Of a stretch of DNA of 64,000 nucleotides, positions 8,841 through 60,824 are shown one piece after another. The DNA is from Burkholderiaceae bacterium (lineage in GTDB: Bacteria > Pseudomonadota > Gammaproteobacteria > Burkholderiales > Burkholderiaceae_C). How positions within the stretch are numbered: position 1 is the stretch's first letter; each line of letters opens with the position of its first letter. The translations under genes and the position numbers were made by a program. The notes beneath the pieces were generated by a model. It was given only the letters and a program-made list of their open reading frames with translations. It had not been told where the DNA came from and did no database searches. Location of the stretch: positions 1 through 64,000 of the forward strand of contig JACSRS010000107.1 in the NCBI GenBank assembly GCA_014879655.1, in the 5' to 3' direction.

Positions 8841-8891
8841 TATCAGTAGCGATAGAACACCATTTGACGCTGGATACGCCCTGAAATGACC
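8841..8891 (+). repeat. Dispersed repeat, copy A
   Basis: Core TAGC, 13 bases, TTGACGCTGG, then ATAC and a weak inverted partner (CTGAAAT) to the upstream ATTTGAC. It starts 10 bases after the thioesterase stop. One of six same-orientation copies in the window. Confidence 0.8.
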
Positions 8892-20850: not shown

Positions 20851-20900
20851 TTTTTGATAGCTAAAAGTGACCATCTGACGCTGGAAAATTGCGAAAAAGA
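20851..20900 (+). repeat. Dispersed repeat, copy B
   Basis: TTGATAGC, 13 bases, CTGACGCTGG (one change from the TTGACGCTGG core) and an A-rich right flank. It begins 33 bases after the NhaP2 stop. Confidence 0.75.
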
Positions 20901-35543: not shown

Positions 35544-35590
35544 GATCAATAGCAACAAACGTCCATTTGACGCTGGATGGGGGTCAAAAT
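35544..35590 (+). repeat. Dispersed repeat, copy C
   Basis: TAGC, 13 bases, TTGACGCTGG, with a clear inverted pair ATTTGAC / GTCAAAAT around it. It starts about 35 bases past the glutaredoxin-like stop. Confidence 0.85.
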
Positions 35591-37093: not shown

Positions 37094-37142
37094 TTTCATA
37101 GCAACAAATATCCATTTGACGCTGGGATGTTGATGATTTGAC
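37094..37142 (+). repeat. Dispersed repeat, copy D
   Basis: TAGC, AACAAATATCCAT, TTGACGCTGG, then a GATTTGAC further on. It lies in the divergent gap between dbpA and amn and is nearly identical to copy C over its first 30 bases. Confidence 0.85.
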
Positions 37143-47285: not shown

Positions 47286-47340
47286 TTTTTGTAGCTGTAT
47301 TCGACCAATTGACGCTGGCTACTGGTCATTTATTCAAAAA
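47286..47340 (+). repeat. Dispersed repeat, copy E
   Basis: TAGC, 13 bases, TTGACGCTGG, then CTACTGGTCAT as the right arm. It lies between the nodJ fragment and the GMC oxidoreductase end. Confidence 0.8.
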
Positions 47341-52488: not shown

Positions 52489-53556
52489 ATGGCCGGGATG
52501 AATGTTCAACCGTCTCTGCCGATTGCAGCCCCGGGCGCCGATCCCCACCCGTACACCCGACTCACGCCCGACGCAGTGCTGGACGCGCTGGCTGCGGTCG
52601 GCCTGTACGGCGACGGCCGGCTCACCGCGCTCAGCTCCTACGAAAACCGTGTCTACCTGATTCACCTCGAAGATCCGTTCGAGGGCCACCAGGCCGTGGT
52701 GGCCAAGTTCTATCGCCCCGGCCGATGGAGCCGTGAGCAGATACTGGAGGAACACGCCTTTGCCGCCGACCTGATGGCGCAGGATGTGCCCGCCATCGGG
52801 CCGCTGCGACTGGCCGGTGAAACCTTGCACAGTGCTGAAGGCTTCCTGTTCAGCGTCAGCCCGCGCCGCGGCGGTCGCGCGCCTGAACTGTACGATTTCG
52901 AGGTGCTTGAATGGATCGGCCGCTTTCTGGCCCGCATCCACACCGTGGGTAGCGCCCGCCCGTTTGCTGCGCGCGGCGCGCTGGACCTGCAGACTTTTGC
53001 CATCGAGCCCCGGGACTGGCTGCTCGCCAGCGGCATGATCCCGCCGGACGTCGAGGGCGCCTGGCGGTCAGCCATCAACATCGCTATCGACCTGATAGCG
53101 AAACATGTCGATTTGACGCTGGATACTGGCCAAAAACGATCAAAAATACGCCTGCATGGCGACTGCCACCCCGGCAATATTCTGTGGACGCCGGCCGAGC
53201 AGCCGGGGGCGGGCCCGCACTTTGTGGATCTGGACGACGCCCGCATGGGACCGGCGGTGCAGGATCTGTGGATGCTGCTGTCGGGTGACCGCGGCCAGCA
53301 GACCGCGCAACTGGATGCGCTGCTCGAAGGCTACCGGCAGTTCCGCGACTTCGACACCCGCGAGCTGGCCCTGATCGAGCCGCTGCGCACGCTGCGCCTG
53401 ATCCACTACAGCGCCTGGCTCGCGCGCCGCTGGCGCGATCCGATCTTCCCGATCAATTTTCCCTGGTTCGGCAGCCGCGACTACTGGCAGGGCCAGGTCG
53501 ACATGCTGCACGAGCAGATCGAGGCCCTCCAGTCGGAACCGCTGGCCTGCTACTGA
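52489..53556 (+). CDS. srkA: Stress response kinase SrkA (YihE) with a repeat-encoded segment
   Basis: 355 aa (ATG at 52498 also possible). Protein Ser/Thr kinase of the APH fold. Y-E-N-R-V-Y-L-I near 45, K in V-A-K-F-Y-R-P-G-R-W near 68, catalytic H-G-D-C-H-P-G-N with Asp 225 and Asn 230, and metal-binding Asp in D-L-D-D-A-R-M-G near 245. In Escherichia it counters MazEF-linked stress death. Residues about 198-220, just before the catalytic loop, are encoded by one copy of the dispersed repeat (53088-53143), giving I-D-L-I-A-K-H-V-D-L-T-L-D-T-G-Q-K. The frame is intact and all catalytic motifs remain. Confidence 0.9.
   Translation: MAGMNVQPSLPIAAPGADPHPYTRLTPDAVLDALAAVGLYGDGRLTALSSYENRVYLIHLEDPFEGHQAVVAKFYRPGRWSREQILEEHAFAADLMAQDVPAIGPLRLAGETLHSAEGFLFSVSPRRGGRAPELYDFEVLEWIGRFLARIHTVGSARPFAARGALDLQTFAIEPRDWLLASGMIPPDVEGAWRSAINIAIDLIAKHVDLTLDTGQKRSKIRLHGDCHPGNILWTPAEQPGAGPHFVDLDDARMGPAVQDLWMLLSGDRGQQTAQLDALLEGYRQFRDFDTRELALIEPLRTLRLIHYSAWLARRWRDPIFPINFPWFGSRDYWQGQVDMLHEQIEALQSEPLACY
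53088..53143 (+). repeat. Dispersed repeat, copy F, inside srkA
   Basis: TGATAGC, 13 bases, TTGACGCTGG, ATACTGGCCAAAAA. It matches the intergenic copies in core and spacing but is translated as part of SrkA. Confidence 0.85.
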
Positions 53557-57730: not shown

Positions 57731-59269
57731 TCACCGGGCCAGCTGGTCTTGTCGGACCAGTTCGAAATCACCAGGCATCCAGCTTTTGTCGAACCAGGGT
57801 TGCAGCGGGCCATAGAGGCGCAGCAGCACGTTGTAGCCCTTTGCGGGCATGGTCTGGATCCAGTTGCCTTCGTGTCCTTTCGGCGCCTTCGGGCCGAACC
57901 ACATCGTGTAGGAACCATCGGCATTTGCCTTCACGGACGGGTTGTTGCTGTCCAGGCCGCCGGTTTTCTGATCGGTTTCAAGGACCGAACGAGTCTGGTT
58001 GTCGTAGACCATGAAGGACCAGAAGTCCTTGGCGGGAACGGGGCCGGGGAGGGTGACCTTGTAGGTATTGCCGCCGTCGAGATAGCGACCTTCCGAATCA
58101 TGGGCGCCGATCGCGTAGGCAGAACCGGTGCCGACCTTGGGATTGGCCATGGCCGGGGTGATGGCGGTGGCGTAGTAATGGAACATGATGCGGTCATCCA
58201 GCACCAGTTCTCCGTTGTTCATGAACTCGTGGCTGCCACCCGTGAAGCTGGAATACCACTGGCGCTTGCCCGGGTAAAAATAGGCGCTATCCAGGCGCGG
58301 ACGGAAGGTGATCGAACGCGCCGTGGCGTTGCCGATGGCCACACCCTCGGTGAGGATCTTCTTCATACGGGCATCCGGCGCGAAGGGCTTGCCCTTCTTG
58401 ATCCCGATCGCGGCGAACTGGCCGACGATTTCAGGATTGAAGGCACCGGCCGGCTCATATTGGACGACCGCGTTCAACTCCGCCCAGTAGGCATAGTCGT
58501 TCGCGTGGATGGTGTTGATCTTCGCACCCGACGCATTGACCACTCTCCCTTTGGGCGGGTTGTTCAACTTCGAGAGGGGGTAGATGCGGAATTGCGTTCT
58601 CAGGCCCTGGGTAGCCGCTTCCAGGTCGCCGTCCTGGACCAGCGCACGCAGGAACATCCAGTTGCGGTAGGTGGGGGTCTTCACGACGCGATAGCCGTCG
58701 GGAAGCGCACCCTTGTAGTCCGGACCGACAAAGACATACTTGCCACCCTTGCCCTGGTTCGGCCCGGTTACACCGAAGTCGGTGACCCAGCGGAAGAAGG
58801 CATCGTCCACCGCACCGACCAGACGCCCGGCAGGCACCTCCACGATGGCCGGTTCATCCTTTACGTTGATCTCGGCAAAGGCATAGGGCGTGGTCGTCTG
58901 GGGTGTCAGGAGCAGACTTCGAGCGTCGTAGAGGTTTTCCCACAGCACCAGGTCGCCCGGTTTCGCGCCGGCCTGCTTCAGGCCTTCCAGCATGGCGTAG
59001 ATGGAGGTGGCCGGAATGCCGTTGAGAAACGCATCGACAGCGCGCGAGAGGTCAATGAAGTCGTAGGTCTTCTTCACCGTGGCATCGCTGGGCATTCCGT
59101 CCCTGAAATCGAGTTCGCCAAGGAATTCGGTCTGCACCTTGTCGGGGGTGATCAGGCTCGAAGGCACATCGGCTTTGTATTTGGGTTCTGCCGCAGAAGT
59201 TGACGTAACAAGCGTTGTCATCAATGCGGCAGAGGCCAGTAGCGAAAGGGTATGGCGTGTCATGCTCAT
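57731..59269 (-). CDS. Secreted DUF1254/DUF1214 protein, intact tandem copy
   Basis: 512 aa with AAAGGAAAA upstream. Signal peptide cut near S-T-S-A-A-E. DUF1254 region (about 60-180) and DUF1214 region (about 390-505) end with N-W-I-Q-T-M-P and R-L-Y-G-P-L-Q-P-W-F-D-K-S-W, as in the protein at 1.4 kb. It is plainly a tandem duplicate of the next gene (same length, same motifs throughout, 43 bases between them). Its codon at the spot where the neighbour has a stop is CAG (L-E-T-D-Q-K). Likely in an operon controlled by the AraC regulator at 61-62 kb. Confidence 0.9.
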   Translation of the reverse strand: MSMTRHTLSLLASAALMTTLVTSTSAAEPKYKADVPSSLITPDKVQTEFLGELDFRDGMPSDATVKKTYDFIDLSRAVDAFLNGIPATSIYAMLEGLKQAGAKPGDLVLWENLYDARSLLLTPQTTTPYAFAEINVKDEPAIVEVPAGRLVGAVDDAFFRWVTDFGVTGPNQGKGGKYVFVGPDYKGALPDGYRVVKTPTYRNWMFLRALVQDGDLEAATQGLRTQFRIYPLSKLNNPPKGRVVNASGAKINTIHANDYAYWAELNAVVQYEPAGAFNPEIVGQFAAIGIKKGKPFAPDARMKKILTEGVAIGNATARSITFRPRLDSAYFYPGKRQWYSSFTGGSHEFMNNGELVLDDRIMFHYYATAITPAMANPKVGTGSAYAIGAHDSEGRYLDGGNTYKVTLPGPVPAKDFWSFMVYDNQTRSVLETDQKTGGLDSNNPSVKANADGSYTMWFGPKAPKGHEGNWIQTMPAKGYNVLLRLYGPLQPWFDKSWMPGDFELVRQDQLAR

Positions 59270-59312: not shown

Positions 59313-60824
59313 TCATTTAACCAGCTCGAAATCGCCCGGCTTCCAGGTCTTGTCAAACCAGGGCTGGAGCGGGCCATAGAGGCGCAGCAGTGTGTTCCAG
59401 CCCTTGCCCGGCATGGTCTGGACCCAGTTGCCACCCTTGCCTTTCGGTGCCTTGGGGCCGAACCAGATGGTGTAGGAGCCGTCGTCGTTCGCCACCAGGC
59501 CGCGGCTGTTGCTGTCGAGGCCAGCGGACTTCTAGTCGGTCTCGAGCATCGACCGGCTCTGGTTGTCGTAGACCATGAACGACCAGAAGTTGTTCATCGG
59601 GATCGGTGCTGGCAGCGTGATCCTGTAGGTCTTGCCGCCATCGAGGTAGTCGCCGTTGGCGTCCCGTTCGGCATAGGCATAGACCGATCCTTTCCCGACC
59701 ACCGGCAGCGCCATCGCGGGCGTGATCCCGGTGGCGTAGTAGTGGAACAGGACACGGGCATCAAGCAACCGCTCGCCGTTGTCGTAAAACTCGGAACTGC
59801 CGCCGATGAAACTGGTTTTCCACTGGCGGTCCGGGTAGTAGAAGGTGCGCTTGTCCCGCGGCGCGAAAACGATCGCCCTCGCGGTGGCATTGCCGACCGC
59901 CACCGCGTCGGTCAGGATCGCGCGCATCCTGTCATCGGGTGCGAAGGGCTGTCCCTTCTTGATGCCGATGGCGGCCAGCGTGCCGACCAGTTCAGCTGGA
60001 AAGGCATCGCTCGGTTCCTTCTGGATGACGGCGTTGATCTCTTTGTAGAACTCAAAATTGTTGGCGTGGACCGTGTTGAACTTCAGCCCCGACAGATTGA
60101 CGAACTTCGTTTTTGGCGGGTTGTCGCGCTGCGCCCATGGGTAGACCCGCATCGTATCCTTGACCCCTTGCACGCCCGCCGCCAGATCGCTGTTCATGAT
60201 CCGGGTCAACTGCCAGACCGTGTAGGTGGGCGAACGGACGATGAAATAGCCCTCTTTGGGCAAATCGCCCTTGTATCCCGGGGGAACCAGCAGGTATTTG
60301 CCCCCCTTGCCCTGGTCGGGCCCGGTCAATCCCAGGTCGACGACGTGCCGGAAATAGGCGTCGTCCAGCGGCCCAAGCAGGCCGGGCGACGCTTCCAGAA
60401 CGATCGGACCGTTTTCCAGGTCAAAGCAACGGGTGACATAGGAGGTTGTCGTCTGGGCCGTCAGAAAAACCGACTTGGCGTCCATGAGCGTTTCGAAAAT
60501 GCCAACCGTCTGTTCGTCGACCCCGGCTTCTTTCTTCAGGCCGTGGCACATCGCATAGATTGATGCCGCTGGCATGCCGTCAAGAAAGGCTTGGACGCCC
60601 CGCATGAAATCCAGGTTGTCGTACACGGTCTTGACGGTCGCATCGACCGGTGCGCCATCCTTGAAACGCAAGGTCCCGAGGCGGGTCTTGACGCTGTCCG
60701 GCGTGCGGACCGACGCGGGAACGTCCGCCTTGAACTTCGGCGCATCGGCGGCGCTGGCGCAGACTGACGCGAGCGCGCCGACGAGGGTGAGTGCGGACAT
60801 TGCCGCAACTTTGAGAGTCATCAT
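59313..60824 (-). pseudogene. DUF1254/DUF1214 gene interrupted by an amber codon
   Basis: Signal peptide and both domains are present in one frame of 504 codons from ATG at 60824 (GAAGG upstream), but codon TAG at 59534-59532 stops translation after S-M-L-E-T-D. The frame continues past it with K-S-A-G-L-D-S-N and the normal DUF1214 end Y-G-P-L-Q-P-W-F-D-K-T-W-K-P-G-D-F. The tandem neighbour has CAG (Gln) at the same place, so this is a single C-to-T nonsense change. The product without read-through lacks the last ~70 residues of DUF1214. A sequencing error or amber suppression would rescue it. Confidence 0.88.

Follow-up and report, generated by a model that had tools for sequence, protein, structure and literature searches.

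The gene srkA, which occupies positions 52489..53556 on the + strand of the 64,000-nucleotide stretch of DNA analyzed here (hereafter, the window), encodes a YihE/RdoA-type serine/threonine protein kinase of the APH fold, and the DNA directly ahead of the codons for its catalytic H-G-D-C-H motif (53155..53169, + strand) resembles a dispersed repeat. This raises the question of how a repeat came to be read as protein beside a catalytic loop, and of what has kept it there. A first-pass annotation, made from the letters alone, had regarded the gene as otherwise intact, and this is borne out: the open reading frame (ORF) is full, its product matches Pfam APH (E 1.8e-33), NCBIfam PRK11768 (476.8 bits; cut-off 194) and E. 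coli YihE in the PDB (1zyl; E 1.5e-88), and a model of the product compares with the fold of 1zyl at a TM score of 0.85. The APH fold, the HGDCH catalytic loop (invariant in the alignment), and the family profile that define SrkA/YihE kinases are all present.

The repeat copy within srkA is copy F (53083..53147, + strand). At its 5' end is a short hairpin, GCTATC-gacct-GATAGC (53083..53099, + strand; arm GATAGC at 53094-53099), that occurs in the repeat families of other genomes and is weak in the consensus of the source genome (G000). Further along is a conserved core, CGATTTGACGCTGG (53109..53122, + strand; genome consensus CCATTTGACGCTGG), recognized in family pattern searches. Read in frame, the copy supplies about 22 residues (AIDLIAKHVDLTLDTGQKRSKI) immediately preceding RLHGDCH, the catalytic motif beginning two codons 3' of the repeat-coded segment. 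Copy F is an exact match to a longer family pattern (G000:C79:53095-53131), and a matrix of the other copies, scanned over the whole srkA ORF, scores 38.3 bits at copy F and -5.3 bits at the next best place. The claims that a dispersed repeat is translated within SrkA and that its residues stand right before the H-G-D-C-H loop are thereby confirmed; the coordinates originally proposed for it, 53088-53143, were close to correct, the element reaching slightly wider, from about 53083 to about 53147.

Copies A to E all lie between the main ORFs of the window, with core pattern matches on the + strand at 8860..8874, 20871..20885, 35563..35577, 37112..37126, and, with two mismatches, 47305..47319; copy F alone of the six is coding. 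Six matches to the 15-mer core CCATTTGACGCTGG at two or fewer mismatches compare with 0.15 expected by shuffling. Across the whole of G000, the core at one or fewer mismatches has 227 matches (reversed-pattern control, 0) and a longer pattern that includes ATAGC and GCC has 223 (control, 0), a density of about one copy per 16 kb. The element is AT-rich and about 57-65 nt long, with a strongly conserved 14-nt core and loose flanks; its consensus tag is ATAG(C), GTAGC being a minority variant. The G000 consensus folds no better than shuffled sequence (z +0.3) and is therefore not a good palindrome; the consensus of another genome, G011, forms a strong hairpin (z -5.9), and the srkA copy a weak to moderate one (z -2.8). 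A search of Rfam over the window returned no match. All six window copies are on the + strand, the genome overall being balanced (107 forward, 120 reverse). About 45-60 nt beyond several of the intergenic cores (e.g., those at 37112 and 47305) comes a stretch of loose conservation, CAGGGGGT / ACCCCC, which is possibly part of a longer element in G000.

The orthologue comparison took in SrkA protein and DNA from about 110 genomes, one per species and many of them MAGs, with families sampled by pattern and the source genus represented by one genome. Many Comamonadaceae carry AT-rich repeat-like DNA of the form GCTATT-GATTTGATAGCTGCTNGCGCA...GGCC at the same srkA codon, coding LIAxxAxLTGAxGQ, and the repeat keeps its codon, strand, and phase across many genera. 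At the DNA level, it was not found in outgroups, Limnohabitans, Polaromonas, Ramlibacter, or Hydrogenophaga. In Polaromonas FW.019-like genomes (L128, L129), srkA does have a repeat near HGDCH, but its register is displaced, and it may have arisen separately. From a conserved Trp/Tyr region (W) to HGDCH, most outgroups (other Burkholderiales families) have 25-27 residues, G000 has 31, and many Comamonadaceae have 31-37. The G000 stretch is about 4 residues longer than that of most outgroups and about 6 longer than that of E. coli YihE; with a net gain of only about 4, the roughly 22 repeat-coded residues therefore replaced mostly native SrkA sequence. The orthologue comparison suggested in the first-pass annotation is thus positive, the segment being present in some relatives and absent from others, and a segment of one length throughout the orthologues, which would have spoken against insertion, is not what is seen. 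The notion of an insertion stands as regards site-specific presence and absence; it does not stand as a private, recent, or simple insertion, given the shared codon and the small net gain. In a SrkA tree built without the repeat segment, carriers are spread through the Comamonadaceae, including an early branch (L009), with several losses and at least four changes forced.

The segment also follows the repeat content of the genome. In-frame ATAGC or GTAGC is present in the srkA segment of 37 of 43 repeat-rich genomes and of 0 of 27 repeat-poor genomes (Fisher p 6e-14, a descriptive value since related genomes are not independent). Exceptions are Polaromonas and one Comamonas, which are repeat-rich without an srkA copy, and a GC-ameliorated Acidovorax-like copy. 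In carriers, the GC content of the segment is 12 points below that of the gene, a dip that repeat-poor genomes do not show. Inside the Rhodoferax clade, L107 is free of repeats (0 matches); its srkA segment is GC-rich as DNA and still similar as protein.

A second conserved gene of G000, trpF (L057, PRAI domain), also holds a repeat copy. In nearly all repeat-rich genomes examined, trpF has an element that is written in the dialect of the genome concerned and keeps both its frame and its distance, exactly 36 nt, from the QFHG codons that follow it; trpF of G021 is GC-rich at the repeat site. The FVN-QFHG stretch of TrpF has 18 residues in carriers, repeat-poor relatives, Burkholderia, and Caballeronia; since its length is unchanged, the motif replaced native sequence in trpF. 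In a Pfam scan of ten long ORFs across G000 copies, only the trpF copy fell inside a recognized enzyme domain, one weak DUF429 match being set aside. In the AT-rich relative G032, 10 of 20 sampled copies, in both orientations, lie in Pfam-supported ORFs, including the LolA N-terminus, EarP, LysA, MTAN, RNase R, and the MetRS linker (L241, L244-L248, L253, L254, L257, L259). A third shared repeat-bearing gene was sought, and the candidate, lysA, carries the repeat in G032 only, where the protein is longer (44 vs. 33-35 residues); not every coding copy is therefore shared. We did not adopt the idea that the repeat originated from trpF, because trpF is without the perfect hairpin of the G011 family and because the AAC-A motif is missing from Burkholderia TrpF.

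Repeat families differ from genome to genome: AGCGCTTG...CAAGCGCT in G011, AGGCAATAAATACGCCGGCT in G032, TTGAGCAGTATTTACATGGGCT in G036, GCTCGCGCA...GGGGCT in G064, and CCATTTGACGCTGG in G000 and G061. The dialect of coding copies was scored with the repeat matrices of nine genomes over 22 central bases, using label permutations; for seven genomes, none of the scored bases had belonged to the search pattern; the pattern for G000 and G061 did include the core TTGACGCTGG. The family of the same genome ranked first in six of nine cases for srkA (permutation p about 4e-5) and likewise in six of nine for trpF (p about 2e-5), values in which relatedness inflates independence. In G032, for example, the family reads ATAGCTGTTCAGGCAATAAATACGCCGGCTACAGGC, as compared with ATAGCTGCTCAGGCAATAAATACGCCGACTATAGGC in srkA and ATAGCTGCTCAGGCAATAAATACGCCGGCTATAGCC in trpF, and the G061 srkA copy agrees with its own family at 18 of 22 bases; three Acidovorax-like families are too alike to separate own from other. 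When matrices were scanned over whole ORFs, the best place was the same codon-phase srkA site in all nine genomes, with the G016 copy barely above background (4.6 vs. 4.0 bits). The match in srkA is at the DNA level, synonymous sites included.

The explanation that we favor, and to which we assign somewhat better than an even chance, is that an old copy of a RAYT-associated (REP-type) element, in frame and at a tolerant place, makes up the srkA segment and has been repeatedly homogenized with the family of its own genome. An element copy would have taken up this place early in the Comamonadaceae, encoding a helix end and a probably flexible loop ahead of the catalytic loop, and would since have been homogenized with the same-genome family, most likely through gene conversion or RAYT-assisted REP-to-REP replacement; given such homogenization, the srkA copy would take its codons from the dialect of whichever genome carries it. 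In genomes that have lost the family, the segment would be expected to drift back to GC-rich codons or to shorten. TnpA-REP cleaves and recombines REP DNA in vitro (PMC8266576), which offers a plausible route to REP-to-REP replacement, and ordinary gene conversion would be the other. The data show that the copy belongs to the family and is in frame, that its site is shared, that srkA and trpF match the dialect of their genome, that the copy is lost along with the repeats, and that a repeat adjoins the RAYT gene; the conversion mechanism, the part played by RAYT, and the near-neutrality for SrkA we infer. A bolder proposition, which we put forward tentatively as having a little less than an even chance, is that the RAYT-linked family acts as a lasting gene-conversion drive on fixed stretches of conserved enzymes, such that in each Comamonadaceae genome its own repeat dialect, and not selection on the enzymes, sets part of the SrkA and TrpF sequences.

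One Y1_Tnp/RAYT gene was found in 11 of 12 genomes checked, with NCBIfam REP_Tyr_transpos scores of 73-81 bits against a cut-off of 80. In G000, one PF01797 gene (E 1.4e-12) scores 77.6 bits against that cut-off, and the gene of G064 scores 81.1 bits. In 7 of 11 genomes, G000 included, a repeat copy in inverted orientation stands between -26 and +20 bp relative to the RAYT stop; a copy upstream of the RAYT start, as in REP systems in which two inverted REPs flank the RAYT gene, was seen in one genome only. Because of the single RAYT gene and the copy at or near its stop, the element is most likely a RAYT/REP-type repeat. In those 11 genomes, the RAYT gene (L141, L142-L151) apparently occurs once and keeps the same conserved position; in L141, the neighboring ORFs resemble a glutamate synthase large subunit and a methyltransferase.

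The element shares with REP/RAYT (TnpA-REP) systems and REPINs its more than 100 dispersed copies per genome (as in G000), a single genome-encoded REP-associated tyrosine (Y1/HUH) transposase, genome-specific families (PMC2817692, PMC8266576, PMC3116915), and a repeat copy at the 3' end of the RAYT gene. REPs are extragenic and palindromic by name and have a GTAG (or CGTC) tag tetranucleotide, whereas the element here has the consensus ATAG(C), codes at conserved positions of srkA and trpF while copies A-E are intergenic, and is barely palindromic in G000. Like RPE-1 to RPE-7 of Rickettsia and WPE of Wolbachia, it is translated in frame inside conserved housekeeping proteins (srkA and trpF; in G032 lysA, EarP, MTAN, and others) at the same locus of orthologues (PMC3767692, PMC2229807). 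However, RPEs measure 100-150 bp, form long stem-loops, and belong to intracellular Alphaproteobacteria (Rickettsiales), whereas this element of about 57-65 nt occurs in free-living Comamonadaceae, adjoins a RAYT gene, and has coding copies that follow each genome's dialect. BRE, a beta-proteobacterial repeat element of Bordetella and Comamonadaceae, is dispersed too, with some copies wholly inside coding sequences (PMC3110155), but it is 75-91 bp long, 69% GC, and present in at most 29 copies, as opposed to an AT-rich element in 100-220 copies; BRE was set aside on length, GC content, and copy number.

An alternative is that the motif is itself the object of selection or drive, in the manner of DNA uptake sequences (DUS) or protein-binding sites; point mutation would then create and maintain it in situ, and its dialect would follow a recognition protein. 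We consider this unlikely, although the DUS of Neisseriaceae do show comparable genome-specific dialects and some intragenic copies (PMC3630211), and such an origin would be in keeping with a whole motif in trpF without change in length and with the conserved 14-nt core and loose flanks in G000. DUS are words of 10-12 nt recognized by a pilin receptor (ComP), with a role in transformation, and number in the thousands (3273 copies in one Neisseriaceae genome; PMC3630211), as opposed to about 220 copies here, or about one per 16 kb; additionally, an element of about 57-65 nt is long for an in situ origin, the RAYT adjacency fits copying better, and in G032 the lysA copy brought additional residues with it.

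Rather less probable is that srkA and trpF contain hot spots into which the active family of each lineage inserted separately. Recurrent insertion would give every genome its own dialect, and the lysA copy of G032 is a case of an in-frame copy that arose in one lineage; however, it would have to reproduce the identical nucleotide position, strand, and phase genus after genus, without any gain in length in trpF, and intermediate and decayed copies are nested in repeat-bearing clades.

A different suggestion is that protein function maintains the segment, which would be an adaptive loop, specific to the lineage, that tunes SrkA activity; its position directly before the catalytic loop might imply as much. 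In the AlphaFold model of SrkA (pLDDT 87.8), the repeat-coded residues are 180-201 and form a helix end and a loop (pLDDT <50) just before the catalytic strand. Such a loop is probably flexible, and the model suggests that SrkA tolerates the segment rather than being tuned by it; the structural check proposed at the outset thus fits the neutral of the two outcomes then envisaged, the segment appearing as a low-confidence loop joined to a helix end. A mild effect on SrkA is possible by analogy, because a Rickettsia guanylate kinase bearing an RPE was still active and differed in its affinity for substrate (Abergel et al., 2006, as recounted in PMC2229807). Still, adaptive tuning is a very improbable account: the region differs freely from one genus to the next in both sequence and length (25-55 residues between W and HGDCH), confidence in the predicted loop is low, and it is the DNA, synonymous sites included, that carries the match. 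Chance resemblance of an ordinary loop, variable in all SrkA proteins, to the repeat is scarcely credible and was excluded by the core counts in the window, the 223-match pattern with a control of 0, the 38.3 bits at the site as against -5.3 elsewhere in srkA, and the 14-nt core with ATAGC and GGCCAAAA in register.

Translation of repeats into protein is known chiefly from Rickettsia and Wolbachia. In the free-living bacteria considered here, a RAYT-linked family occupies orthologous codons of two unrelated conserved enzymes, and the copies change with the whole family. The element behaves like RPEs, is probably REP-type, and adds concerted change at orthologous codons. Searches of the open-access literature turned up neither a description of this element nor a case of coding copies that follow a dialect, and such tracking at orthologous codons in free-living Betaproteobacteria seems to be new. 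If conversion is confirmed, a mobile repeat would be steering protein evolution across a whole bacterial family, and the coding copies would provide a direct, countable test of RAYT action on existing REP copies in vivo, an open question for the spread of REPs. Separately, the window contains longer imperfect repeats at 57756-58264 and 59320-59828 and, inverse, at 2642-2917 (70-77% identity), which are probably paralogous genes.
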